From: Salegentibacter sp. R32
Lineage (GTDB): Bacteria > Bacteroidota > Bacteroidia > Flavobacteriales > Flavobacteriaceae
Reading direction: 5' to 3'
Length of the DNA: 64,000 bases
NCBI RefSeq assembly: GCF_008692195.1
Contig: NZ_RXOM01000065.1
Location: forward strand, 62,001-126,000
Below the pieces are notes generated by a model, which did no database searches, was not told the origin of the DNA, and was given only the letters and a program-made list of their open reading frames with translations. Numbering within the stretch: the stretch's first letter is position 1; each line of letters opens with the position of its first letter. Positions 6,375 to 63,030 of the stretch are shown piece by piece. A program made the translations under genes and the position numbers.

Positions 6375-7910
6375 TTATTCCTTAGGAAAAGGACTACTTT
6401 CATAAGCTCCGCTATCTGGAGCATTTCCTCTTATAGTTCCTAAGATATCTTGATTAGTAGCTGTAGAAGGATTTGCTAATCCGTTGGCGGGAGATTCTTC
6501 GTTGATGAAAAGCTCATTTTCATAGGGTTCATAAAAATTAGGGTTTTCATTGATGATTGTTCCGGGATAAAGGTTTTCATCTTCAAATGGGTATTCTTCT
6601 GCAAAACTCCCGTCAAAATCATTAAATTTGATTAAGCAGTTTTCAAATTTATAGTTAAAAGCAGCTTCATCACTTCGGCTAAAGAAAAGTTCGCGGTTTT
6701 CATTTCCGTAAATAATGCAATTATTAAAGTTAGCTTCTATTAAATCTGAAACAAAAATCTGATCTGGAGTTTCTAAAAGGTTTTCAACCAAAACTGCCGG
6801 GTAGGGACGGTAACTTTGTGTCCAATAATTAGCAAAGGTACAATTGGTGAAATTATATCTTCCTCCCAGAGAAATATTTAAAGACGACTGTCCGGCTTTA
6901 TTAATAACCAAATTATTACCTTCTACATGACCTGTTCTTGCCAATAAACCCACGTTAGAAGAATTATATATTTTAGAATTATTGATGGTAAGTGTCGGTT
7001 CGTTAGAACCATCGTTAGAGTCCATTAAAACACCAACCGTGGCATTTTTTATGGTCGCGTAATTAATTTGATTGTTGGTGCTTCCTGCCGTAAGCCAAAG
7101 CGCTCCCCATTGTCCGGGAACATCACTAAAACTTGGTTCTAAGCGGTCGCTTTCAAAAATCACTTCATTTTCCAATAGTTCTTGATCGCTACTTAATTCA
7201 CCATTTACGTGAAGCGAACCGTGTTCAGCAACAATAATTCCGCTAGCTTGGTGAAAATGAATCCGTGCTCCGGCTTCAATGTCCAAAGTTCGGTTACCGG
7301 GCACTGCTGCGTAGCCGTAAATTACGTAAGGTTTTTCGTTGGTGAAAGTGAGTTCGGTATCGTCTAAAAAGAAACCTTCAATTAAAACTTCATTTCCTTC
7401 TTCATCAAAACCAAATGAAAGTGATTCGGTAGTGCCATCGTTAAATTTTTCAGGATAAAGAAAAACAGCATCTTGAATTAGGGTAACTAATTCTACTTTT
7501 TGCTGATTTGAACCTGTGTCAAATTCAATAGCATCTGTCAACAGGAATTGATTTTCCTGCGAGAAATTATCAATATTGGTAGTAGACTCTATAAATACAA
7601 AAATGCTATCTTCTGCCAAAATATCTATATTCTCAAAAGATTTACCGGGTAAACCGTCTACATTTAATCGGTAATTAGAGTTTTCTCCTTTTCCTAATTG
7701 AATGGTGGGAATGGTCATATCTTCATCAGACCTATTATAAACGGTAAGTTGATAGGTGCTTGACCCAATATTGGAAAAAACAGTATCCAGGTAAACCGTA
7801 TCTGTTGAAAAAGATAATCTCCCGTTGCTAGGTTCTGTACTAAAATCGTTTCTGCAGGAACTCCACAAAACAATAGAGCAGAGAAGGAGTAAACTATAAA
7901 GGTATTTCAT
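6375..7910 (-). CDS. Lipoprotein with beta-helix-like middle, unknown function
   Basis: 511 residues. The N-terminus is a lipoprotein signal: a hydrophobic stretch ending SSC, with C19 as the lipid-modified residue. Residues about 30-130 look like an immunoglobulin-like domain (LDTVFSNIGSSTYQLTVYN). From about 165 onward short repeats of the type IEAGARIHFHQASGI, NNSKIYNSSNVGLLA and NNCIIYGNE suggest a right-handed parallel beta-helix, as in Bacteroidota surface lipoproteins. The C-terminal NAPDSGAYE ending is common in such proteins. It is separated by one base from the upstream glutaminyl cyclotransferase gene on the same strand, so the two are co-transcribed. No enzyme motif was recognised. 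Confidence 0.72.
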   Translation of the reverse strand: MKYLYSLLLLCSIVLWSSCRNDFSTEPSNGRLSFSTDTVYLDTVFSNIGSSTYQLTVYNRSDEDMTIPTIQLGKGENSNYRLNVDGLPGKSFENIDILAEDSIFVFIESTTNIDNFSQENQFLLTDAIEFDTGSNQQKVELVTLIQDAVFLYPEKFNDGTTESLSFGFDEEGNEVLIEGFFLDDTELTFTNEKPYVIYGYAAVPGNRTLDIEAGARIHFHQASGIIVAEHGSLHVNGELSSDQELLENEVIFESDRLEPSFSDVPGQWGALWLTAGSTNNQINYATIKNATVGVLMDSNDGSNEPTLTINNSKIYNSSNVGLLARTGHVEGNNLVINKAGQSSLNISLGGRYNFTNCTFANYWTQSYRPYPAVLVENLLETPDQIFVSDLIEANFNNCIIYGNENRELFFSRSDEAAFNYKFENCLIKFNDFDGSFAEEYPFEDENLYPGTIINENPNFYEPYENELFINEESPANGLANPSTATNQDILGTIRGNAPDSGAYESSPFPKE

Positions 7911-7911
7911 A

Positions 7912-8952
7912 TTATTTTTCTACAATTTTTACTTCAAAAAGCTTGTCCCAATTTTTACCGGTCACATACAGTTTTTGGGTGTTAGGGTTATAAGCAATCC
8001 CATTTAGTACATCTAATTTTTTATGCTGAGTTACTTTTTCACGCAATCCTCTAAAATCGATTAATCCTTCGACTGCTCCGGTTTCAGGGTCTATAATTAC
8101 CACACCATCTTTTTGCCAAGTGTTGGCGTAAATTTTACCTTCTACCCATTCTAATTCGTTAAGTTTAGTGATGGTAGATTTGTGAGTAACCGGCTGAATG
8201 TAACTTTCTTCTTCTAAAGTTTCCGGATTTAAAATCCAGATTTTTTGGGTTCCATCACTTTTATAAATTTTCTCACCGTTGTTACACAATCCCCAACCCT
8301 CTTTACTGCTGTTGTATTTAAACGTTTCTAATCGTTCAAAAGTATTTACATCATAAATTAATCCGTCACCGGAACGCCAAGTGAGCTGATAAAGTTTATC
8401 GTTAAGAATGGTTAAGCCTTCACCAAAATAAACATCGCTTAATTTTACTTTTTGAAGCACTTCACCGGTTGTATAATCTACTTTTCTAATAGTAGATTTT
8501 CCGTTTAAGCCCGTACTTTCATAGAGTGTATCTTTATAAAATTCCAACCCTTGTGTAAATGCATCTTTATCGTGTGGATAAGTATTTACGATTTCATAAG
8601 TATAGAACTTTGTTTTTTTATTACTGTGAACGACGACTTGCTCTTCAATTTTATATTCTTCGCCATCGCTATAAACTTTTGCGGTAAAAGTATTTTCGCC
8701 CAACGGAAGCTTAAATGTATAGGAATTATTCTTTACCTGAATTTCTTCTCCTGCAAAAGAGTAAATAACTGAATCTATATTTTGTTCTCCTTTGGGGTGA
8801 AGTTGAACTTTTGCGGTTTCTCCTTGCTGTATTTTTTCCGAAGCACCTTCAATTCTTAAGTTAAAAGGAGCTTTATCATCATTTTTTTTATCTCCGCAAG
8901 AATAAGCTAGAACCACTAAAATTAAGGCGTTCAATAAGTTATAAAATCTCAT
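7912..8952 (-). CDS. Glutaminyl-peptide cyclotransferase, lipoprotein
   Basis: 346 residues. A lipoprotein signal ends at YSC (C19), then comes a short immunoglobulin-like domain (about 30-105), then a five-bladed beta-propeller of the plant/bacterial glutamine cyclotransferase family (about 115-346). Diagnostic segments are PHDKDAFTQGLEF, YESTGLNGKSTIRKV, YFGEGLTI and LNGIAYNP. The reaction converts N-terminal glutamine to pyroglutamate, which would protect exported proteins from aminopeptidases. Lipidation places it in the envelope. It is first in a two-gene minus-strand unit with the downstream beta-helix lipoprotein. Confidence 0.87.
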   Translation of the reverse strand: MRFYNLLNALILVVLAYSCGDKKNDDKAPFNLRIEGASEKIQQGETAKVQLHPKGEQNIDSVIYSFAGEEIQVKNNSYTFKLPLGENTFTAKVYSDGEEYKIEEQVVVHSNKKTKFYTYEIVNTYPHDKDAFTQGLEFYKDTLYESTGLNGKSTIRKVDYTTGEVLQKVKLSDVYFGEGLTILNDKLYQLTWRSGDGLIYDVNTFERLETFKYNSSKEGWGLCNNGEKIYKSDGTQKIWILNPETLEEESYIQPVTHKSTITKLNELEWVEGKIYANTWQKDGVVIIDPETGAVEGLIDFRGLREKVTQHKKLDVLNGIAYNPNTQKLYVTGKNWDKLFEVKIVEK

Positions 8953-9006
8953 AAAATTTTAATTAAAAAAGAGTGGCTAATTTAGTCATTTCCTATTAAA
9001 AAATGC

Positions 9007-9036
9007 TTGTAGAAAAAGATAAACCTTGTATATTTG
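9007..9036 (+). promoter_or_regulatory. Promoter of the SRP RNA gene
   Basis: A -33 TTG at 9007-9009 and a perfect -7 element TATATTTG at 9029-9036 are separated by 19 bases, as in Bacteroidota housekeeping promoters. The RNA begins about five bases downstream. Confidence 0.75.
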
Positions 9037-9040
9037 CAGC

Positions 9041-9135
9041 GGCAAGTCCCACACAACCAGCTCCTGTCGAATTCCCCCAGGGCGGGAACGCAGCAAGGGT
9101 AGACGGTCGTAGCGGTGTGATGTGGGTCGCTTGCC
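9041..9135 (+). ncRNA. ffs: Small signal recognition particle RNA (4.5S type)
   Basis: A stretch of about 95 bases whose ends pair (GGCAAG at 9041 with CTTGCC ending 9135). It contains the conserved SRP domain IV: the CAGG segment, a GGAA-type tetraloop in GGCGGGAACG, and the opposing AGCAAGG strand (about 9078-9099), where Ffh binds. The RNA and Ffh target nascent membrane proteins to the Sec translocon. A T-rich tail follows. End coordinates are set by the terminal pairing and may be off by a few bases. Confidence 0.93.
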
Positions 9136-9225
9136 ATTTTTTATTTCCTCTTTTTAAATATTTCCCCTTCAATTTTTAAGCTTTCTATTAAATAATCGAT
9201 ATTTGCGTTTCTATTTTTAGAAGTT

Positions 9226-10032
9226 ATGACAAATAAAGTTGTTTTGATTACCGGAGCATCTTCAGGTATTGGTAAAGCTATCGGAGAGTTTTTGGCTACA
9301 AAAGGTTATCTGGTTTATGGTACGAGTAGAAACCCGAAAGAAAAAGAAAAGAACGGAATTAAGTTTTTAGCTTTGGATGTGACTAAAGTTGAAACTATTC
9401 AGCAAGCAGTCGAAAAAATTCTTCAGCAAGAAAAAAGAATAGATTACTTAATCAATAATGCTGGAATGGGAATTACAGGTCCTATTGAAGAGATTCCCGA
9501 TGAAGAAATCCGTAAGGTTTTTGATACCAATTATTTTGGAGTGATTAACGTCATTAAGGCAGTACTTCCTGCTATGCGTGAACAAAAAGATGGCTTTATT
9601 ATCAATATAACTTCTATTGCCGGATATATGGGATTGCCGTATCGCGGAATTTATTCTGCTACCAAAGGAGCCTTAGAACTTACCACGGAAGCGTTTAGGA
9701 TGGAGCTGAAAGAATTCAATATAAAAATGACCAATATTGCTCCGGGTGATTTTGCCACAAATATTGCTGCCGGAAGATATCACGCTCCTGTTGTTAAAGA
9801 TTCTCCTTACGAGAAAAACTACGGAAATACGCTAAAGTTAATGGATGAACATGTAGATAAGGGAGAAAACCCTATGGTAATGGCCAAAAAAGTTTATGCT
9901 GTGATGCAGGAAAAAAATCCTACCATTCATTATAAAGTGGGGGAAGCTTTACAGAAATTTAGTATTGCCTTAAAGCATATTTTACCCGATAAGATGTATG
10001 AAAAAATGCTAATGAAGCATTATAAACTTTAA
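9226..10032 (+). CDS. SDR-family NAD(P)-dependent oxidoreductase
   Basis: 268 residues, a classical short-chain dehydrogenase. The cofactor motif TGASSGIG is at 9-16, NNAG at 77-80, and the catalytic set S130, Y143, K147 (YSATK) is complete. The residues after the second strand (TSRNPKEK) include an arginine, which favours NADP, by family rule. It resembles the loosely annotated SDRs acting on ketones or acyl chains; the substrate cannot be told. It is transcribed alone; the next gene converges from the right with one base between stop codons. Confidence 0.85.
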   Translation: MTNKVVLITGASSGIGKAIGEFLATKGYLVYGTSRNPKEKEKNGIKFLALDVTKVETIQQAVEKILQQEKRIDYLINNAGMGITGPIEEIPDEEIRKVFDTNYFGVINVIKAVLPAMREQKDGFIINITSIAGYMGLPYRGIYSATKGALELTTEAFRMELKEFNIKMTNIAPGDFATNIAAGRYHAPVVKDSPYEKNYGNTLKLMDEHVDKGENPMVMAKKVYAVMQEKNPTIHYKVGEALQKFSIALKHILPDKMYEKMLMKHYKL

Positions 10033-54147: not shown

Positions 54148-55049
54148 GACATTTTGAAATCGATGAAATTTATAATTTCTTGTGGTTCTACATCATAGTT
54201 AAACCATTTAATTTCTTCATCTTTTCTAAACCAGGTTAACTGTCGCTTGGCAAAACGTCTGGTATTCTTTTTAATTTCAGCAATCGCAAAATCAAGCGTC
54301 CAATTTCCATCAAAAAATTGGAAGATTTCTTTATACCCAACGGTATTTAGCGCATTCAAATCTCGTTTTTCGTAAATACGTTTTACCTCATCTAACAAGC
54401 CTTGTTCGATCATCAGATCGACACGTTTTTCAATTCGCTCATAAATTAACTCACGCGGAGCGGTTAAACCAATTTTTATAGTGTAGAAGTTTCTTTCTGC
54501 GGAAGAATTATTTAAAAAACTAGAATAAGGTTGACCACTACCTATACAAATTTCTAGAGCTCGAATTACTCGATGCGGATTTTCTAGATCTACCTTTTCA
54601 GCATAAACAGGATCTAATTCTTTTAATTGTTGCTGAAGTTTTTCTATTCCTTCTTTTTCTAATTGAAGATTTAATTGTTCTCTAACGGAAGCTTCAACTT
54701 TTGGAAAATAATCTAGCCCTTCTAAAATCGCTTTTACATACAAACCGCTGCCACCAACCATTAATACTTGATTATGTTGCTGAAATAATTCATTCAGCTT
54801 CTCGATTGCTTCAGTTTCAAAATCTCCTACAGAATATTCCTCTTCCACAGAAATATGTTGAATAAAATGATGTTTAGCTTCCGCTAATTCTTCCGAAGAA
54901 GGAACCGCAGTACCAATTTCCATTTCTTTAAAAAACTGTCTAGAATCGGCTGAAATAATTTCAGTTTGGTAATGTTGGGCTAATGCAATACCGGTAGAAG
55001 TTTTACCGATAGCCGTTGGGCCGACAATAGAGATTAATGATGTTTTCAT
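54138..55049 (-). CDS. miaA: tRNA dimethylallyltransferase
   Basis: Adds a dimethylallyl group to N6 of A37 in tRNAs that read codons starting with U. 303 residues. P-loop GPTAIGKTSTGIAL (about 9-22), DSRQFFKEMEIGTA for substrate binding, then VGGSGLYVKAILEGL, and the C-terminal TRRFAKRQLTWFR that grips the tRNA. It ends the housekeeping stretch; the LacI gene lies 29 bases upstream in the same direction. Confidence 0.95.
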   Translation of the reverse strand: MKTSLISIVGPTAIGKTSTGIALAQHYQTEIISADSRQFFKEMEIGTAVPSSEELAEAKHHFIQHISVEEEYSVGDFETEAIEKLNELFQQHNQVLMVGGSGLYVKAILEGLDYFPKVEASVREQLNLQLEKEGIEKLQQQLKELDPVYAEKVDLENPHRVIRALEICIGSGQPYSSFLNNSSAERNFYTIKIGLTAPRELIYERIEKRVDLMIEQGLLDEVKRIYEKRDLNALNTVGYKEIFQFFDGNWTLDFAIAEIKKNTRRFAKRQLTWFRKDEEIKWFNYDVEPQEIINFIDFKMSPR

Positions 55050-55078
55050 TATTAAAAATTAGCTTTAAAATTACAATG

Positions 55079-56101
55079 TTATAATTTTAAAGTAGATTCT
55101 CTAACCACTAAATGCGTTTTTATTTCTACAGTTTTGCTAATTACCTGGTTTTCATTATTAATTTCTTCAACTAAGTACTTTACAGAGGTAGCACCAATTT
55201 TTTGCCCTGGTTGATCTACTGTTGTTAATTTAGGTGAAATAATTGTAGAGTTAAGCGAGTTACTAAAGCCTAAAACCGCTATATCATCTGGTATTTTAAT
55301 TTGTAGTTTTTTAAAGGTTTTTATTACTCCTATTGCACAATCGTCGGTAATTGTAAAAACTGCATCAGGCCTTTTTTGCAAGCTTAAAATTTGATAAGCT
55401 AGTCGTTGCCCGTGTTGCAAAGAAATATCTTCTGTGCTTAATATATATTGTTCATCTATAGGTAGATTATGTTTTTTTAATGCTTTTAGGTATCCTCTAT
55501 AACGCATTTCAGAATTAAAACTTTTTTCTGTTTCTTTTATAATGGCTATATTTTTTTTGCCAGTGTGTATAAGATGCTCTACTGCCTCAAACGCGGCTTG
55601 TTCTTCGTTTATAATTATATGAGTACAAGGTATTTTGTTAGATACCTTATCTAATAATACTAATGGTATACGCTCTGCAGCTGCAATAATATTTTGAACA
55701 TTTTTTGTTTTTCTTGTTAGCGAGAGTAACAAACCATCAACACCAAACTGCCGCATCATTTGTATGAGTTCTTCTTGTTTATCTGGGCGGTTTTTAGATT
55801 CAGAAACAATAACGCGATAACCCTTTTCTTCTGCTTCTTGTAAAACACCTTCTATTACTGTTGAAGTAAAATAATTTGAAATTTGTGGCACTATTAAGCC
55901 AATAATATGAGTTTTTTGAGATCTAAATCCTTTAGCAAATAAATTAGGAAAATAGTTCATCTTTTTCGCATAACTGCAAACCAGCTCTTTGGTATCAGCA
56001 CTAATATCTTGATGATTATTTAGTGCTCTAGAGACAGTAGAAACAGAAAGGTTTAAATCTTCGGCTAAATGTTTTAAAGTAATGGTAGTTTTTTTTCTCA
56101 T
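55079..56101 (-). CDS. LacI-family transcriptional regulator
   Basis: 340 residues from the ATG at 56101. A start ten codons earlier would translate part of the operator region. Helix-turn-helix (about 6-28, LKHLAEDLNLSVSTVSRALNN) and hinge (YFPNLFAKGF), then a periplasmic-binding-protein-like ligand domain (62-340) with IGLIVPQISNYFTS and DAVFTITDDCAIGV. Divergent from the TonB receptor gene. Two perfect inverted repeats lie in the gap, so it most likely controls both itself and the catabolic operon. Inducer not known; from context a glycosylglycerate or its sugar. Confidence 0.93.
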   Translation of the reverse strand: MRKKTTITLKHLAEDLNLSVSTVSRALNNHQDISADTKELVCSYAKKMNYFPNLFAKGFRSQKTHIIGLIVPQISNYFTSTVIEGVLQEAEEKGYRVIVSESKNRPDKQEELIQMMRQFGVDGLLLSLTRKTKNVQNIIAAAERIPLVLLDKVSNKIPCTHIIINEEQAAFEAVEHLIHTGKKNIAIIKETEKSFNSEMRYRGYLKALKKHNLPIDEQYILSTEDISLQHGQRLAYQILSLQKRPDAVFTITDDCAIGVIKTFKKLQIKIPDDIAVLGFSNSLNSTIISPKLTTVDQPGQKIGATSVKYLVEEINNENQVISKTVEIKTHLVVRESTLKL

Positions 56102-56109
56102 AATAACTA

Positions 56110-56123
56110 TTACGTTTTCGTAA
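56110..56123. promoter_or_regulatory. Putative LacI operator 1
   Basis: TTACG-TTTT-CGTAA is a perfect inverted repeat 9 bases upstream of the LacI start codon. It shares the core ACGTTTTCGT with the second site. Confidence 0.6.
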
Positions 56124-56148
56124 AAATACATATTTCAAACGTTCCCGG

Positions 56149-56162
56149 TAACGTTTTCGTTA
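56149..56162. promoter_or_regulatory. Putative LacI operator 2
   Basis: TAACG-TTTT-CGTTA is a perfect inverted repeat centred 39 bases from operator 1. An overlapping imperfect palindrome CGTTCCCGGTAACG lies just before it (56140-56153). It is 85 bases before the TonB receptor start, suited to block that promoter. Confidence 0.62.
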
Positions 56163-56247
56163 TAAATTGTTATTTTTTGATATTAAACAATGTTAAATAA
56201 TAATAATTTCACAAAAAAGAACACATATATAACCAAAATTATTAATT

Positions 56248-58842
56248 ATGAATAAATATATTCTTACAGCTTTCCTTTTATTAAGTGGTTTGTTCGCCAT
56301 TGGACAAACCCAAATTTCTGGTCAGATTACAGATCCATCAGGAATGGCAATTCCTGGAGTAAATGTTGTTGTTAAAGGAACCTCTGATGGAGGCATAACA
56401 GATTTAGATGGTAATTTTTCATTTCAAACAATGGCCACGGGAAAACAAACAATACAAGCATCCTATGTTGGCTTTGAAGTTTATGAAAAAATTGAAACAC
56501 TAACCGGTAAGGCTATCGTATTAAGTATACAAATGCAAACAAGCTCAGAGCAATTAAATGAAGTAGTTTTAACGGCAACCTCTACTCGACGTAGTCAAAA
56601 AGAAACTCCATTATCTATTACTTCTTTTGGTCAAAAAGAGTTAGCCGAAAAAAACACAGGAAGCCAAGCAGATATTTTGCGTAGTGTACCTGGTATTACT
56701 GCAGAAGGTGGTGGTGGTGAAGTTGGGGCTAATGTTTTTGTTAGAGGGTTACCTTCTGGCGGGCAGTATCAATTTAATCCAATTCAAATCGATGGTATGC
56801 CTGTATTGGGTACTTTTGGTTTAAACTCTTCTGCACATGATGTTTACTTTAGAAACGATTTAGGTATGAGAAGTTTAGAATTTGTAAGAGGTGGTTCTTC
56901 TATTCTTTATGGTGTAGGTTCTGTTGCAGGTATTATAAACTATACTAGTGTAACAGGAAGCGCTCAGCCTAAAACAACATTGCGTTTAGAAACTGCAACA
57001 AACTCTCGTTATAAAGCAGATTTTGTAACAAGTGGACCGTTAGGAGCAGAAGATTCAGATTTATTTTATGCATTTTCAGGATTTTATAGATACGATGAAG
57101 GCCCTTTAAAAACAGGACTTACTACTAGAGGTTTTCAATTAAGAGGAAATATTAAAAAAGTTTTTGAAAACGGTTCATTCACTTTATCTGCACAAGCTAT
57201 AGACGATAAGGTACAATTTTTTCTTCCTTATCCTTTAGAAGGAGGTTCTCGAGAAAGACCAACCGGTAATGATGGAGAAACTATTTATACACTGCAAACA
57301 GCTGCAGCTTCAGATTTTTCGTATCTAACACCTAACGGCATGTACCGTTCTCCCATTGATGATGGTGTAAAAACTAAAGGAGGATATTTTCTAGCCAACT
57401 ACATATATAATTTTGAAGATGATTTGAAATTAGATGCTAAGTTAAGATATAGTAAGTACCAACATGAATTTAATTTCTTTTTAGACGGAAGCGGTTTAGC
57501 AGATGCTAACGTAGTAGAAACTCAAGCAGAATATTTGGCAGCTAGAAATTTGAGTAGTGGAGAATTTACTTATCTAAACGGTGAAGCTTTAGCAAGCGAT
57601 GCTTTATTATTTGAAAATAGAGTTTTAGATAGAGATAGACCTATTCAAGAACTAATGGCAGATATAAAATTAGTAAAAGCTATAGATGCTCATACTTTTA
57701 CACTGGGTTCTTTTATGTCTCACTCAGAAGCAGACGATGTAAATTTTATTACTAGCTACTTAAGCGAATATAATGATCGTCCAGACTTAATCGATGTATC
57801 TGGTTATACTGTTAATGGTATCACTAATAGAGGAGCAAGTTATAGTAATAGAAGTGTAATAAGTAATAAAATTGCAGTTTATCTAGCAGATGAAATAAGG
57901 TTAGATAAATGGAATTTTGATATTGGTTTTCGATACGAAAGAGCTTCTGGAGATGTAAAGATAGAAGGTACAGAAAGTTATGAGGTAGATAACACAGGTA
58001 TAGCAAACATAGATAATGTAATGTGGGGTAATGGTAGCTATACCAGAGGTCACGTAACAGCAGATGGTTTTGCAGTAGCACTTGCTGCACTTTACAAAAT
58101 AAACGATGCTTATAGCGTCTACGGAAATTTCTCTAAAGGTTATTTTTTCCCTGAACTTAGAAGTATAAGCTTTGATAATTTAGGAAACCCATCTTCTTAC
58201 AAACCAGAAAATATTGTACAAGCCGAAGCAGGGTTAAAGTACGGTAAAGGTAAATTATCTGGAACTGTAGCTTTATATGGAGTAAGCCTAACAGATAGAA
58301 GGTCTATAACTTTTGTAAATACAGATGATGGTGGCGCTACAGAACAGGTAGATATTCAAGATAGTGAAACTTATGGTGCAGAATTTACTTGGAACTATAA
58401 GTTTATTAAAAATTTTAATTTCGGAGGTTCTATAACTTATCAAGATCATCAATTAACAAAATCTGAAGGTAATCCAGAATTTGTAGGTAATGAGTTAAGA
58501 AGACAACCAAATGTATTAGGTACAGCCAATTTAGGGTATAATAACAATAAAATAGATGCTTCATTTATATATAATTATACTGGAGAAAAGTATAGCAACG
58601 ATGCTAATACTATTTTATTAGATGCTTTTGGTTTAGCTTCTTTAAATTTAGGTTATACATTTACTATGTCTGAAAATTTAGAAACTATACGTTTAGGTGC
58701 TCGAGTATATAACCTGTTTGATAGTCAAGGTATAACAGAAGGTTCTCCTAGAATGGCAAATAACCAAACAGAAGAAGCATTTTTTGTGGGACGCCCAGTA
58801 TTACCAACACGTCTGTTTTTATCGGCAACATTCAACTTTTAA
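56248..58842 (+). CDS. TonB-dependent receptor of the glycosylglycerate locus
   Basis: 864 residues. Signal peptide MNKYILTAFLLLSGLFAIGQ, a CarboxypepD_reg-like domain (about 22-105, DPSGMAIPGVNVVVKGTSDG), a plug (about 120-235, ILRSVPGITAEGGGGEVGAN and VRGGSSILYGVGS) and a barrel ending SATFNF. No SusD partner follows, so it is a stand-alone importer suited to a small solute. Divergent from the LacI gene. The 63 bases to the next gene hold a perfect 11-bp hairpin, so the receptor may be expressed more strongly than the enzymes. Confidence 0.9.
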   Translation: MNKYILTAFLLLSGLFAIGQTQISGQITDPSGMAIPGVNVVVKGTSDGGITDLDGNFSFQTMATGKQTIQASYVGFEVYEKIETLTGKAIVLSIQMQTSSEQLNEVVLTATSTRRSQKETPLSITSFGQKELAEKNTGSQADILRSVPGITAEGGGGEVGANVFVRGLPSGGQYQFNPIQIDGMPVLGTFGLNSSAHDVYFRNDLGMRSLEFVRGGSSILYGVGSVAGIINYTSVTGSAQPKTTLRLETATNSRYKADFVTSGPLGAEDSDLFYAFSGFYRYDEGPLKTGLTTRGFQLRGNIKKVFENGSFTLSAQAIDDKVQFFLPYPLEGGSRERPTGNDGETIYTLQTAAASDFSYLTPNGMYRSPIDDGVKTKGGYFLANYIYNFEDDLKLDAKLRYSKYQHEFNFFLDGSGLADANVVETQAEYLAARNLSSGEFTYLNGEALASDALLFENRVLDRDRPIQELMADIKLVKAIDAHTFTLGSFMSHSEADDVNFITSYLSEYNDRPDLIDVSGYTVNGITNRGASYSNRSVISNKIAVYLADEIRLDKWNFDIGFRYERASGDVKIEGTESYEVDNTGIANIDNVMWGNGSYTRGHVTADGFAVALAALYKINDAYSVYGNFSKGYFFPELRSISFDNLGNPSSYKPENIVQAEAGLKYGKGKLSGTVALYGVSLTDRRSITFVNTDDGGATEQVDIQDSETYGAEFTWNYKFIKNFNFGGSITYQDHQLTKSEGNPEFVGNELRRQPNVLGTANLGYNNNKIDASFIYNYTGEKYSNDANTILLDAFGLASLNLGYTFTMSENLETIRLGARVYNLFDSQGITEGSPRMANNQTEEAFFVGRPVLPTRLFLSATFNF

Positions 58843-58863
58843 AAAAAACAATTTGTAATAATT

Positions 58864-58891
58864 TGGTTGCCTTTATAATTAAAGGCAACCA
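58864..58891 (+). promoter_or_regulatory. Intercistronic hairpin between receptor and hydrolase genes
   Basis: A perfect 11-bp stem (TGGTTGCCTTT / AAAGGCAACCA) with a 6-base loop. The following bases are only weakly T-rich, so partial termination or a 3' mRNA stabiliser are both possible. Confidence 0.6.
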
Positions 58892-58905
58892 TTATATTCT
58901 TAGTT

Positions 58906-60216
58906 ATGAAAGAAAAATTAATAGAAAAAGCTACACAAATTTTAAATAATAATAATAAAGGAGGGTTTACTATACCTTCAGAAGGGCTGTATCCTTTTCA
59001 ATGGAATTGGGATTCAGGGTTTATAGCTATAGGTTTAGCCCATATAAATATTGAATTAGCAAAAAAAGAACTAGAATCTTTACTTGATGCTCAATGGGAA
59101 AACGGATTTGTACCTCATATAGTGTTTCATAATGATTCTGATAGCTATTTCCCTGGTCCAGATTTTCATCTTTCCAAATTGCACCCAGAAGCTTCTAAAA
59201 AATATAGAACAACGGGTATGACGCAACCTCCGGTATTAGGTTTTGTACTACAAGAGTTATACAAAATTGCAGAAGATAAAAAAGCTATTTTAGAGTTTAT
59301 AGATTCTATTATCGATAAGGTGTTTAAAAAACATACATACCTTTATGAAAATCGAGATCCAAACAACGAAGGCTTAATGTATATTTGGCATAATTGGGAG
59401 TCGGGTACAGATAATTCTCCCATTTGGGATGAGGTTTGGTCTAAAATGAAAAATGTACCCAAGTACACTTTTAAACGTAAAGATACTACACATATAGACG
59501 CATCGCAACGCCCTTCTAATGAGGAGTATAATAATTATTTGCATCTTATAGAAATTGCAAAATCACATAATTATAATGAGCAAAAAATTGCAGAAAATTC
59601 ACCCTTTTTAATCCAAGACCCTCTTTTTAATGCAATGCTAATAGCTTCAAATGAGGCTTTAATAGAGTTATATACTAAATTAGGAAGAGAAGAAAATATA
59701 GATCAATTAAAGGCTTGGCAGTCTAAAACAATTAAAAATTTCAACGAAAAATTATTTGATGAAAATTTAGGAGCATATATACATTATGATCTAAGAAATA
59801 ATACACATATTCGTAAAATTACTTCTTCTTCATTTGCTCCATTATTTACAAGTGCACCAAGTACAAAACAATTAGAGCTAATGCAAAATTGTTATTCAGA
59901 AAAATTTGATACTTCAGATTTATATGCTTGTGCATCTTTCGATCCTACCCACCAAGATTTTAATCCCAAAAAATACTGGCGTGGCCCAGTATGGATAAAT
60001 TTAAATTGGATAATTTATAAAGGCTTTTTAAAACACGATAAGCAAAAGCTAGCCGAAAAAATAAAAAATGACTCTATAGAATTAATTGAGAAATTCGGTT
60101 TTTACGAATATTTTAATCCTCATAGAAAATTAAATAATTCTGAAGAAAGCAATGGTTGCGGAGGAGCTAATTTTTCTTGGTCTGCAGCTTTACTATTAGA
60201 TATCTTGAACGCTTAA
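58906..60216 (+). CDS. GH63-type alpha-glycosylglycerate hydrolase
   Basis: 436 residues, no signal peptide, so cytosolic. An (alpha/alpha)6-barrel of the GH63/trehalase clan: YPFQWNWDSGFIAIGL (29-44), FVPHIVFHND, SYFPGPDF, HNWESGTDNSPIWDEV (163-178), YWRGPVWINLNW (357-368) and FYEYFNPHRK. Length and motif order match bacterial mannosyl-/glucosyl-glycerate hydrolases of about 410-450 residues. Candidate catalytic acid is D169 and base E401; Y29, W33, Y81, R202, Y208 and W363 would line the glycerate pocket, by recalled comparison with the glucosylglycerate hydrolase structure. Predicted products are a hexose plus D-glycerate; the glycerate kinase two genes on supports this. Mannose versus glucose cannot be decided. 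Confidence 0.82.
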   Translation: MKEKLIEKATQILNNNNKGGFTIPSEGLYPFQWNWDSGFIAIGLAHINIELAKKELESLLDAQWENGFVPHIVFHNDSDSYFPGPDFHLSKLHPEASKKYRTTGMTQPPVLGFVLQELYKIAEDKKAILEFIDSIIDKVFKKHTYLYENRDPNNEGLMYIWHNWESGTDNSPIWDEVWSKMKNVPKYTFKRKDTTHIDASQRPSNEEYNNYLHLIEIAKSHNYNEQKIAENSPFLIQDPLFNAMLIASNEALIELYTKLGREENIDQLKAWQSKTIKNFNEKLFDENLGAYIHYDLRNNTHIRKITSSSFAPLFTSAPSTKQLELMQNCYSEKFDTSDLYACASFDPTHQDFNPKKYWRGPVWINLNWIIYKGFLKHDKQKLAEKIKNDSIELIEKFGFYEYFNPHRKLNNSEESNGCGGANFSWSAALLLDILNA

Positions 60217-60220
60217 ACCT

Positions 60221-61828
60221 ATGAATTATTTAGATTATATAATTATAGCTGTTTATTTACTAGGCTTTTTAGGAATAGGTTATTTCTTTAAAGAAAATAA
60301 AAATTCAAGCGATTATTTTTTAGGAGGAAGATCTATTGGTTGGTTTCCGTTAAGTTTATCTACAATGGCAACGCAACTTTCAGCAATCAGCTTTATTTCT
60401 GCTCCTGCTTTTGTAGGTTTAAAAGAGGGTGGAGGTTTGCAATGGCTTACCTATGAGCTAGCAGTACCTTTAGCAATGGCTTTTTTGTTAGTCATGATTA
60501 TTCCTACTTTATACAAATCAGGAATTATTAGTGTTTATGAATTTTTAGAAAAAAGATTCGATGCATCTTCACGCTTATTAATAGCATTTGTTTTTCAGAT
60601 AAGCAGGTCTGTAGCAACTGGAGTAATGGTGTATACGATGGCTTTAATTTTACAGGCAACTACAGGTATCGAGTTTTGGATCTCTGTTATTTTAATAGGT
60701 ATTATTACCATGATTTATTCCTTTCAAGGAGGAATGAAAGCCGTTATTTGGGGAGATGTAATACAAATGTGTATTCTTTTCTTCGGAATTGTGATCTGCT
60801 TGGGTTATGGTTTAAGTGAGTTAGGTGGAGTTTCTAATTTTTTAACCGAAGTAGATTCAGATCGTTTAGTGGCTATAGATTTTACAAAATGGGGATTTAA
60901 TAACGCAGATGGTAACGATGAGTTTGGTTTTTGGCCTATGATTATAGGTGGTTTCTTTTTATATGCTTCTTATTATGGTACAGATCAAACACAATCTCAA
61001 CGTTTGCTTTCTTCTAAAGATATGCCTACTATTAAAAGATTATTGTTAGCCAATGGTATATTTCGTTTTCCTATAACACTTACCTATTGTTTTATGGGGC
61101 TTGTTTTAGGTACTTTATTACTGCAAGATGTTGGTTTTCAAAATTTATTAGATGCTACTTACCAAGAAAATATAGGAAGTCTTGCTGGTAAAAAAGCAGA
61201 TTTAATGGTACCTATTTTTATTATTAAATACTTGCCTAATGGTATTATTGGTATTTTAATAGTAGCAATTATGTCTGCCGCAATGTCTTCTTTAAGCTCT
61301 ACTGTAAATTCTTTATCTGCAGTTACCTTGGAAGATTTCGTAAAACGTTTTAAACCAAATGTAACAGATAACGAGTATGTAAAGTACTCTAGATTTATCT
61401 CTCTATTTTGGGGATTAGTTTGTTTAGGTTTTGCATTTTTTGCAGGTAGTATAGAAGGTACCGTAATAGAAGTAATTAATAAAATTAGTTCTGTTTTTTA
61501 CGGACCAATATTGGCAGCTTTTATATTGGCGATTGCTTCTAAAAAAGTGCAAGCCATAGGTGCCAATATAGGTATTGTTGCAGGTGTAGGTCTTAATATT
61601 TATTTATGGCTGGCTGTACCAGAAGTTTTTTGGTTCTGGTGGAATGCTATTGGTTGCTTAACTACCATTATAGTTGCTATAGTAATTAGTAGTTTTATAA
61701 GAAATAAGAAAAGCAAAACCATTGAAGTGGTTTGGTATAAAAATGCAAAATCTGCAGTGATAACTTTATTGGCTTACTTTGTAATTATTGCGGTTTTAGC
61801 CTGGTCACTTTCAAAAATATTAAGTTAA
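60221..61828 (+). CDS. Sodium/solute symporter (SSS family)
   Basis: 535 residues, about 14 membrane helices. LGGRSIGWFPLSLSTMATQ and the Na+-site stretch IMSAAMSSLSSTVNSLSAV are typical of the SSS (SGLT-like) family, closest by eye to the sugar-type members. Likely moves the glycosylglycerate across the inner membrane with Na+, since the hydrolase is cytosolic. Four bases after the hydrolase stop and directly against the kinase start, so one transcript. Confidence 0.88.
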   Translation: MNYLDYIIIAVYLLGFLGIGYFFKENKNSSDYFLGGRSIGWFPLSLSTMATQLSAISFISAPAFVGLKEGGGLQWLTYELAVPLAMAFLLVMIIPTLYKSGIISVYEFLEKRFDASSRLLIAFVFQISRSVATGVMVYTMALILQATTGIEFWISVILIGIITMIYSFQGGMKAVIWGDVIQMCILFFGIVICLGYGLSELGGVSNFLTEVDSDRLVAIDFTKWGFNNADGNDEFGFWPMIIGGFFLYASYYGTDQTQSQRLLSSKDMPTIKRLLLANGIFRFPITLTYCFMGLVLGTLLLQDVGFQNLLDATYQENIGSLAGKKADLMVPIFIIKYLPNGIIGILIVAIMSAAMSSLSSTVNSLSAVTLEDFVKRFKPNVTDNEYVKYSRFISLFWGLVCLGFAFFAGSIEGTVIEVINKISSVFYGPILAAFILAIASKKVQAIGANIGIVAGVGLNIYLWLAVPEVFWFWWNAIGCLTTIIVAIVISSFIRNKKSKTIEVVWYKNAKSAVITLLAYFVIIAVLAWSLSKILS

Positions 61829-62974
61829 ATGAAATTTGTAATAGCTCCAGATAAATTTAAAGGATCGTTAACTGGTTTTGAATTCTGTACTGCAGTAGAA
61901 AAAGGATTAGTAAAAGTATTTCCTCAAGCAGAAATAATTCATCTACCCTTAGCAGATGGAGGTGATGGTACCTTAGAAATTGCGCAGCATCATTTAAAAG
62001 GTACTAAAATTGAGATCTTAGTAAACGATCCTTTTTTTAGAAAAATAAAGGCTTCTTATGTTTTTTCTAAAGATACAGAAATTGCGTATATAGAAATGGC
62101 AGAAGCTTCTGGCTTAAAACGTATTGCAGAAAATGAAAAAAATGTAATGCGAGCAACTTCCTTCGGTACAGGAGAATTAATTCTGCACGCTATAGAAAAA
62201 GGAGCTAAGCATATATTATTGGGTATAGGCGGAAGCGCCACTAACGATTGTGGTATGGGGATGGCCGCTGCATTAGGCTATTCATTTTTAGATGCAAATG
62301 GGCAAAAGTTAAAACCTATTGGAGCTAATTTGACACAAGTAGAAACAATAGATGTTTCTAATGTGCAAGAAAAATTAAAAAATATAAAATTTTCTATAGC
62401 TTGTGATGTACAAAATCCGTTATACGGAAATGAGGGAGCTGCTTTTGTGTATGCAGAGCAAAAGGGGGCAAGTATAGAAAACATTTTGCAATTAGATAGA
62501 GGCTTGCAGCATTTTGCAAACATATTACAACAACAGTTTGGAGTAGATTGTCAGCAAATTAACGGAGCAGGTGCAGCTGGAGGGGTTGGTGCTGGAAGCA
62601 TAGTTTTTTTAAACGGTAATTTAGTTTCTGGAATAGAGCTTATTAAAAATATAAGTAATTTTGATGAGGTTATACAAGATGCAGATTGGTTAATTACTGG
62701 AGAAGGAAAACTTGACGAGCAAACTTTTTACGGAAAAACCATACAAGGTGTTATTAACTCTGCAAAGCAAAATAATATACCAGTAGCTGCTTTTTGTGGA
62801 GCAATTTCTTTAAATATAGAGCAACAACAGAAAATGGGGTTAACCTACTGTACTTCCATTTTAAAAACTATTTCTAGTTTACAAGAGGCAATAAATTATT
62901 CAGAAGAAAATCTTATTCATTCTGTATATAATTTTGCAAACCTTATAAAATTCAGAAAAAAATTAAGTGATTAA
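61829..62974 (+). CDS. Glycerate kinase (GlxK/GarK family)
   Basis: 381 residues. Family signature from the first residues, MKFVIAPDKFKGSLTG, then LADGGDGTLE, the nucleotide/substrate block IGGSATNDCGMGMAAALG (about 131-148), ACDVQNPLYGNEGAA, GAGAAGGVGAG and ITGEGKLDEQTFYGKT. Phosphorylates D-glycerate, mostly to 2-phosphoglycerate in this class, feeding enolase. It starts on the base after the symporter stop. No tartronate or glyoxylate genes are nearby, so glycerate most likely comes from the GH63 hydrolase. Confidence 0.93.
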   Translation: MKFVIAPDKFKGSLTGFEFCTAVEKGLVKVFPQAEIIHLPLADGGDGTLEIAQHHLKGTKIEILVNDPFFRKIKASYVFSKDTEIAYIEMAEASGLKRIAENEKNVMRATSFGTGELILHAIEKGAKHILLGIGGSATNDCGMGMAAALGYSFLDANGQKLKPIGANLTQVETIDVSNVQEKLKNIKFSIACDVQNPLYGNEGAAFVYAEQKGASIENILQLDRGLQHFANILQQQFGVDCQQINGAGAAGGVGAGSIVFLNGNLVSGIELIKNISNFDEVIQDADWLITGEGKLDEQTFYGKTIQGVINSAKQNNIPVAAFCGAISLNIEQQQKMGLTYCTSILKTISSLQEAINYSEENLIHSVYNFANLIKFRKKLSD

Positions 62975-63009
62975 CTTTATCAATAAGTTTTAGTGTTAAT
63001 AGGTATTGG

Positions 63010-63030
63010 TAATTGCTTGCAATTATTTCT
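63010..63030 (+). terminator. Terminator candidate after the glycerate kinase
   Basis: A 6-bp stem TAATTG / CAATTA with loop CTTG, then TTTCT. It overlaps the stop of the convergent ion channel gene. Confidence 0.4.

Follow-up and report, generated by a model that had tools for sequence, protein, structure and literature searches.

Which solute is taken up and broken down by the five genes that Salegentibacter sp. R32 carries in one tight block beside miaA? The question is raised by a stretch of 64,000 nucleotides of its genome (positions 62,001 to 126,000 of contig NZ_RXOM01000065.1; hereafter the window), for which an original prediction named an alpha-glycosylglycerate. Mannosylglycerate (digeneaside) and glucosylglycerate are salt-protecting sugars of algae and cyanobacteria. 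Drawing on a computed basis of gene identities, an active-site match, a conserved operator, conservation of the cassette, co-occurrence of the kinase and an empty site in a relative, we consider it highly probable that the block serves, as a self-contained operon, to scavenge 2-O-alpha-glycosyl-D-glycerates, most probably mannosylglycerate and possibly glucosylglycerate too.

The cassette opens with a LacI-family transcriptional regulator on the minus strand (55079..56131; PF00356, PF13377), divergent from an operon that runs along the plus strand through a TonB-dependent receptor of 864 aa (56248..58842; CarbopepD_reg_2, plug and barrel, non-SusC), a predicted GH63 MGH1-like alpha-glycosylglycerate hydrolase (58906..60216; assigned by PF22422, active site and structure model), a Na+/solute symporter of the SSF type (60221..61828) and a GlxK-type glycerate kinase (61829..62974), with intergenic gaps from receptor to kinase of 63, 4 and 0 bases. 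The symporter matches PF00474 and reaches 248.8 bits on TIGR00813 in a profile search (cut-off 184), and the kinase, by PF02595 (463.5 bits) and TIGR00045 (447.2 bits, cut-off 168.45), belongs to its family and is the sole PF02595 match in the Salegentibacter sp. R32 genome. Coordinates and Pfam/TIGR profile scores thus bear out the five gene identities and positions originally given. The cassette has been inserted next to miaA. In the near relative G005, 7 bases replace 55035..63022 (as delimited by the alignment ends), and a comparison at the miaA/ion-channel boundary, suggested along with the original prediction, finds miaA adjoining the ion-channel gene, and the cassette missing there, in 13 of the 14 other miaA-bearing genus mates.

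The hydrolase, in which no signal peptide was seen on inspection by eye, belongs to the MGH1-like GH63 family (PF22422, 296.7 bits against a cut-off of 27, E 4.3e-88). Its closest solved protein by sequence is the Thermus mannosylglycerate hydrolase (2z07/4wva, E=2.8e-89), followed by a mycobacterial glucosylglycerate hydrolase (E about 1e-67), and in alignment to the solved enzymes its catalytic pair, D169 and E401, is conserved. All 11 substrate residues named in section 3.2 of PMC6608630 are identical in the window hydrolase, as are both catalytic residues. The structure model (pLDDT 93.5) finds 4wva as its best Foldseek match (E 9.5e-33), and its TMq of 0.88 to 4wva_B and 0.93 to 5ohc_A suggests that the fold is shared with both enzymes. 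With the GH63 mannosylglycerate hydrolase of Thermus thermophilus HB8 (PDB 4wva/4wvc) it has 166 identities over 428 aligned columns and agrees at 18 of 19 compared positions, the exception being position 422 (Asn in the window, Gly in Thermus); this comparison covers the protein alone, whereas the window gene is part of an uptake operon. The mycobacterial enzyme MhGgH (PDB 5ohc) has the fold, the catalytic pair and the glycerate contacts in common with the window hydrolase but carries Gln434 where the latter has Phe423, the Thermus state; of the 126 sequences in the alignment, 125 have Phe at this position and the remaining one has a gap. Active site and modelled fold therefore fit known enzymes and lend support to the predicted alpha-glycosylglycerate hydrolase. 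That the enzyme acts instead on another small alpha-glycoside, e.g., trehalose or another glycosylated acid, strikes us as very improbable: although its weaker trehalase and general GH63 matches exceed the Pfam cut-offs, the entire glycerate-binding set is conserved, a glycerate kinase is tightly linked, and trehalases are, by Foldseek on the model, much more distant folds.

Does the gene set hold together beyond this genome? In a family sample of 397 genomes, 57 (about one in seven) have a near orthologue of the hydrolase, and 56 of the loci were fetched, a fragmentary hydrolase match (G294) being counted in the 57 and left out of the 56. The five-gene order recurs in 28 of the 56 and in 18 of the 80 loci of a second sample, which partly overlaps with the first (as contigs of equal length reveal, e.g., L172/L018 at 168022 and L187/L033 at 76990), so that the two are not independent; given this recurrence, the order is not due to chance, and the search for it in other Bacteroidota, likewise proposed at the outset, succeeds. 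A glycerate kinase is encoded in 57 of 57 family genomes with the near-orthologous hydrolase versus 125 of 340 others (Fisher p 1.8e-22, kinship ignored), the 57 kinase calls having been matched by hand between two genome listings whose draws of 397 were taken as identical (same handles, same tallies). This co-occurrence, together with the two profile scores above cut-off, upholds the glycerate kinase claim. Seven of the 56 loci have no kinase in the fetched stretch, and all seven genomes have a glycerate kinase. Loci without the kinase but keeping the rest, a case named as contradicting the prediction, were sought among the 56: L164 keeps LacI and receptor and its contig ends inside the symporter, and in the other six neither LacI nor a window-type receptor was seen, the contigs of L167, L168 and L170 ending 0.9 to 3.3 kb upstream. 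In Saprospiraceae and kin, the cassette occurs with a regulator of another cluster replacing LacI (of the AraC type, judging by the Pfam matches of one representative). Unlabelled neighbouring genes of the two samples were scanned with Pfam in part (10, some of 8, and 20), and most of the 20 are unrelated to sugars. The symporter of L153 is split into three ORFs.

From these parts a complete route can be proposed, in which the TonB receptor would carry the solute across the outer membrane and the SSF symporter would move it intact across the inner membrane, whereupon a cytosolic, inverting GH63 hydrolase would yield mannose (or glucose) and D-glycerate. The kinase would turn the D-glycerate into 2-phosphoglycerate, the product characteristic of GlxK-type enzymes, and the hexose would pass to a sugar kinase and a mannose-6-phosphate isomerase whose genes lie outside the cassette; the genome holds one isomerase match and one ROK match. 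Might the cassette rather turn over the cell's own osmolyte, with the transporters serving other solutes? Such turnover is the role proposed for the mycobacterial enzyme (PMC6608630), but here we regard it as very unlikely and set it aside: a mannosyl-3-phosphoglycerate synthase (MpgS) search of the genome gave no match where a Thermus composti positive control was found, which, on this search alone, fits scavenging more than own turnover, the symporter lies beside the hydrolase in all 56 fetched family loci, and the LacI control appears to be local.

If scavenging is the function, which of the two solutes is scavenged? Homology is unable to choose between them, because the Thermus and Selaginella enzymes, relatives of the window hydrolase, split mannosyl- and glucosylglycerate about equally efficiently (PMC6608630). 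That dual activity leaves room for cyanobacterial glucosylglycerate instead of mannosylglycerate as the physiological substrate, a tentative alternative to which we assign a real but lesser likelihood. It gains from a report of glucosylglycerate from a marine cyanobacterium (PMC11009771), from the nearest NCBIfam model being the glucosylglycerate hydrolase equivalog NF047898, though at 349.5 bits the score is below its cut-off of 550, from the modelled TM-score being slightly nearer the mycobacterial than the Thermus enzyme, and from L162, where a GH13_18-like (sucrose-phosphorylase-like) gene between symporter and kinase fits a glucoside. No homologue of this phosphorylase was found in the Salegentibacter sp. 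R32 genome, in a search run without a positive control, and weaker homologues of the L162 protein sit outside the gene run in L153, L168 and L173. Against a glucoside stand Phe423, as in the mannosylglycerate enzyme, and the gene that comes after the kinase: mannose-6-phosphate isomerase follows it immediately in 5 of the 56 loci (4 genera), compared with a phosphorylase within the gene run in 1 of 56. The isomerase directly follows the kinase in Winogradskyella L004 and L006, too, and in Opitutus L080 a single 894-aa ORF joining a ROK kinase portion to an isomerase-like one lies between hydrolase and kinase; a search of the 56 fetched loci turned up no ROK homologue. With the five isomerase loci set against the one phosphorylase-like locus, mannosylglycerate is the more likely sugar, although loci of this kind are a minority and the window's own cassette has no such genes.

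How would the operon be switched on? A near-palindrome, AAACGTTCCCGGTAACGTTT, at 56137..56156 is a predicted LacI-type operator whose pattern (AAWCGWTnnCGnnAWCGWTT) is conserved in related loci: a LacI homologue is present in 31 of the 56 fetched family loci, and the pattern occurs in 28 of these 31 versus none of the 25 without LacI seen, with 0 matches in one shuffle of 801508 bases. In the Salegentibacter sp. R32 genome, AAACGTTnnCGnnAACGTTT has one exact match, at the cassette. A wider regulon sought in the same genome with up to two mismatches gave 3 places per strand versus 9 for a reversed-pattern control, so the exact match at the locus alone counts. The palindrome within the divergent promoter points to a LacI-regulated local operon, and local LacI control, as originally proposed, is supported by the divergent gene and the conserved operator sequence; LacI may bind the palindrome before the receptor gene and be released by the solute or a product.

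Two known arrangements can be ruled out for the cassette, both in line with the original prediction. It is not a SusCD-type polysaccharide utilization locus, as the receptor's match to the SusC/RagA model TIGR04056 amounts to 89.2 bits, far below the cut-off of 368.25, and the Pfam matches (E <= 0.001) of the five proteins include no SusD family. Escherichia coli mngAB likewise takes up and breaks down mannosylglycerate, by way of a PTS that phosphorylates the solute during transport and an enzyme of family GH38; the cassette differs from this route, neither a PTS permease nor a GH38 family being found in the Pfam matches of its five proteins. To our knowledge, a charged glycoside osmolyte is a recorded substrate of neither the SSF nor the TonB family. 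We infer the specificity of receptor and symporter for glycosylglycerate from their gene neighborhood. The symporters form two separate sets, 69–98% and 52–56% identical to the window symporter, and two receptor sets accompany the same hydrolase. It is an evenly balanced proposition, in our judgment, that the SSF and TonB proteins are dedicated carriers of charged glycoside osmolytes with exchangeable slots and, where LacI is present, a shared operator, which would make the cassette a modular, horizontally moving osmolyte-scavenging island.

The further claim that no system of this composition had been described in Bacteroidota is not supported, since the cassette is widespread and digeneaside degradation had been predicted earlier (PMC8072126, PMC6298971) for Zobellia galactanivorans, Maribacter dokdonensis and North Sea Flavobacteriia, cases that agree with the present one in phylum and solute and may concern the same genes. 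No paper on this five-gene set was among the matches listed in the open-licence literature. The pathway reading is sound; its novelty was overstated. If right, it would provide a gene marker for microbes feeding on the mannosyl- and glucosylglycerate that red algae and cyanobacteria release; the chemistry of this carbon flow is known, but its consumers are hard to assign. As 57 of 397 family genomes carry the near-orthologous hydrolase, the trait can be mapped now in existing genomes, and the operator and the empty site make the operon an easy target for genetics.

First, the anatomy of the locus is as originally predicted. The LacI regulator (55079–56131, minus strand) and, on the plus strand, the TonB receptor (56248–58842), GH63 hydrolase (58906–60216), SSF symporter (60221–61828) and GlxK-type kinase (61829–62974) have the positions, strands and, by profile matches, the families claimed, and the plus-strand gaps measure 63, 4 and 0 bases. 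The hydrolase matches PF22422 (mannosylglycerate hydrolase MGH1-like) in Pfam at 296.7 bits; by sequence, the Thermus mannosylglycerate hydrolase ranks first among the solved proteins (2.8e-89), followed by the glucosylglycerate hydrolase of mycobacteria (6g3n at 1.2e-68, 5ohc at 1.8e-67). Because at 349.5 bits it stays below the 550 that NCBIfam requires of a glucosylglycerate hydrolase, we file it under PF22422 and not as that equivalog. PMC6608630 gives Asp182 and Glu419 as the catalytic pair and lists 11 substrate residues shared by the characterised enzymes; in our alignment all 13 are identical in the window's hydrolase. Gln434 of the mycobacterial enzyme corresponds to Phe423 here, and the Thermus enzyme also has Phe. 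Among 126 distinct hydrolase sequences, taken from both locus samples and counting that of the window, D169 and E401 are kept in 126 and Phe423 in 125, the remaining one having a gap; elsewhere, His71 becomes Gln in two and Gln107 Asn in one, besides gaps. An AlphaFold model built from 32 sequences has a mean pLDDT of 93.5; Foldseek against the PDB ranks the Thermus entries 4wva and 4wvc as the first four matches by E-value, whereas the mycobacterial enzyme is slightly nearer by TM-score (0.93 vs. 0.86–0.89). With no signal peptide seen on inspection by eye, the hydrolase should split its glycoside in the cytosol.

Second, the cassette is common in the family. Some hydrolase match at E ≤ 0.001 occurs in 109 of 397 sampled genomes of the same family, and a near orthologue, by our own cut of E ≤ 5e-97 (next match 2.4e-29), in 57. 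We fetched 56 loci, from 55 of these 57 (leaving out the own genome and G294, with a hydrolase fragment) and from the genus mate G007. The symporter is present in 56/56, counting L153, where it lies in three ORFs (a broken gene or an assembly error), the kinase in 49, LacI in 31 and the window-type receptor in 29; the five-gene order, whose search in other marine Bacteroidota the original prediction had proposed, is complete in 28. As 10 of the 56 stretches reach less than 4.2 kb before the hydrolase start or less than 4.3 kb beyond it, these absences are upper bounds. In a second, partly overlapping sample, the best 80 of at least 571 relatives, the symporter is found in 73, the kinase in 60, the receptor in 42, the five-gene order in 18, and the four genes, irrespective of the regulator, in 36. 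Of those 36, 17 contain a regulator from a different cluster, assigned to the AraC type from the Pfam result of a single representative (L036); in one of the 17, the LacI locus L009, this regulator lies far from the cassette. Many of L016–L033 carry, next to the hydrolase and symporter, a different receptor together with DUF4249 and MurQ-like etherase genes, the family names coming from L020 alone, and L042 holds a tandem pair of hydrolase genes within a single cassette (6623–9308).

The kinase co-occurs closely with the hydrolase. PF02595 occurs in 182/397 family genomes, namely 57/57 with the hydrolase versus 125/340 others (Fisher p 1.8e-22, not corrected for kinship), and most kinases in the hydrolase genomes are the cassette gene itself. 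A local kinase is absent in seven of the 56 loci (L158, L164, L166, L167, L168, L170 and L180), in L164 with the contig end falling within the symporter gene; each of the seven genomes has a PF02595 kinase, on a different contig in the five with a listed place. After the symporter, in the kinase's place, L017 has a GntP-family permease (Pfam) and L180 an ORF of that permease's size.

A putative LacI operator, AAACGTTCCCGGTAACGTTT (56137–56156), lies between the LacI and receptor genes. AAWCGWTnnCGnnAWCGWTT, a pattern that we derived by eye from these very spacers, occurs in 28 of 31 LacI-bearing loci (exceptions L131, L136 and L159). It has no match in any of the 25 loci where LacI was not seen, nor in a single shuffle of 801508 bases. 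In L152 and L169, LacI directly precedes the hydrolase, and the pattern is located there. A narrower pattern has one exact match in the own genome, at 56137–56156.

Third, the locus has a patchy distribution and possibly a composite history. Within the genus, the hydrolase occurs in 2/16 genomes and miaA in 15/16; at the miaA/ion-channel boundary, which the original prediction had singled out for comparison, the two genes are directly adjacent in 13 of the 14 other miaA-bearing genomes of the genus. The genus mate G005 has 7 bases in place of 55035–63022, and in G007 LacI and the receptor lie beside miaA as in the window. Compared at the DNA level, the own genome and G007 (L131) share 93.5% identity in the symporter gene, 87.7% for the kinase, 83.1% for the receptor, 80.5% for LacI and 78.8% for the hydrolase, and in the flanks 87.5% for the response regulator, 80.3% for the histidine kinase, 77.9% for the ion channel and 75.0% for miaA. 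The symporter's excess over miaA and the hydrolase suggests a likely exchange of the symporter part. Across the 56 loci, symporters fall into two sets, with 69–98% (25 loci) and 52–56% (31 loci) identity to the window's and nothing between, and the hydrolase identities of these sets overlap; the receptors likewise form two sets (62–88% and 44–48%).

As to the sugar, the neighbouring genes point both ways. For mannose we count a mannose-6-phosphate isomerase right after the kinase in 5 of the 56 loci (L141, L142, L144, L146 and L165), another after the kinase in L004 and L006, and ROK kinases between symporter and kinase in the second sample (L036, L044 and L073, with L046 and L057 identified by BLAST only). 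We also count a single 894 aa ORF between hydrolase and glycerate kinase (L080, 7805–10489) that joins a ROK kinase to a mannose-6-phosphate-isomerase-like part, the latter by BLAST at 29% identity and not by Pfam. A ROK kinase by itself cannot separate mannose from glucose, and no ROK homologue was found in any of the 56 fetched loci. For glucose we count a GH13 protein between symporter and kinase (L162, 4619–6313), nearest to glucosylglycerol and sucrose phosphorylases, whose subfamily includes glucosylglycerate phosphorylases according to PMC8950772; L153, L168 and L173 carry weaker homologues of this GH13 protein that are not part of the gene run. Sister enzymes of the hydrolase use both solutes (PMC6608630). 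We hold mannosylglycerate to be the likelier of two close solutes, both being quite possible.

Finally, the claim that no such system had been described in Bacteroidota does not hold as written, because digeneaside use, possibly through this gene set, was already predicted: PMC8072126 reports homologues of Zobellia digeneaside degradation genes in Maribacter dokdonensis, and PMC6298971 includes digeneaside in its list of other potential PUL substrates for North Sea Flavobacteriia. The reading of the locus as an alpha-glycosylglycerate pathway is very likely right, and the cassette is of a widespread kind, predicted in part before.
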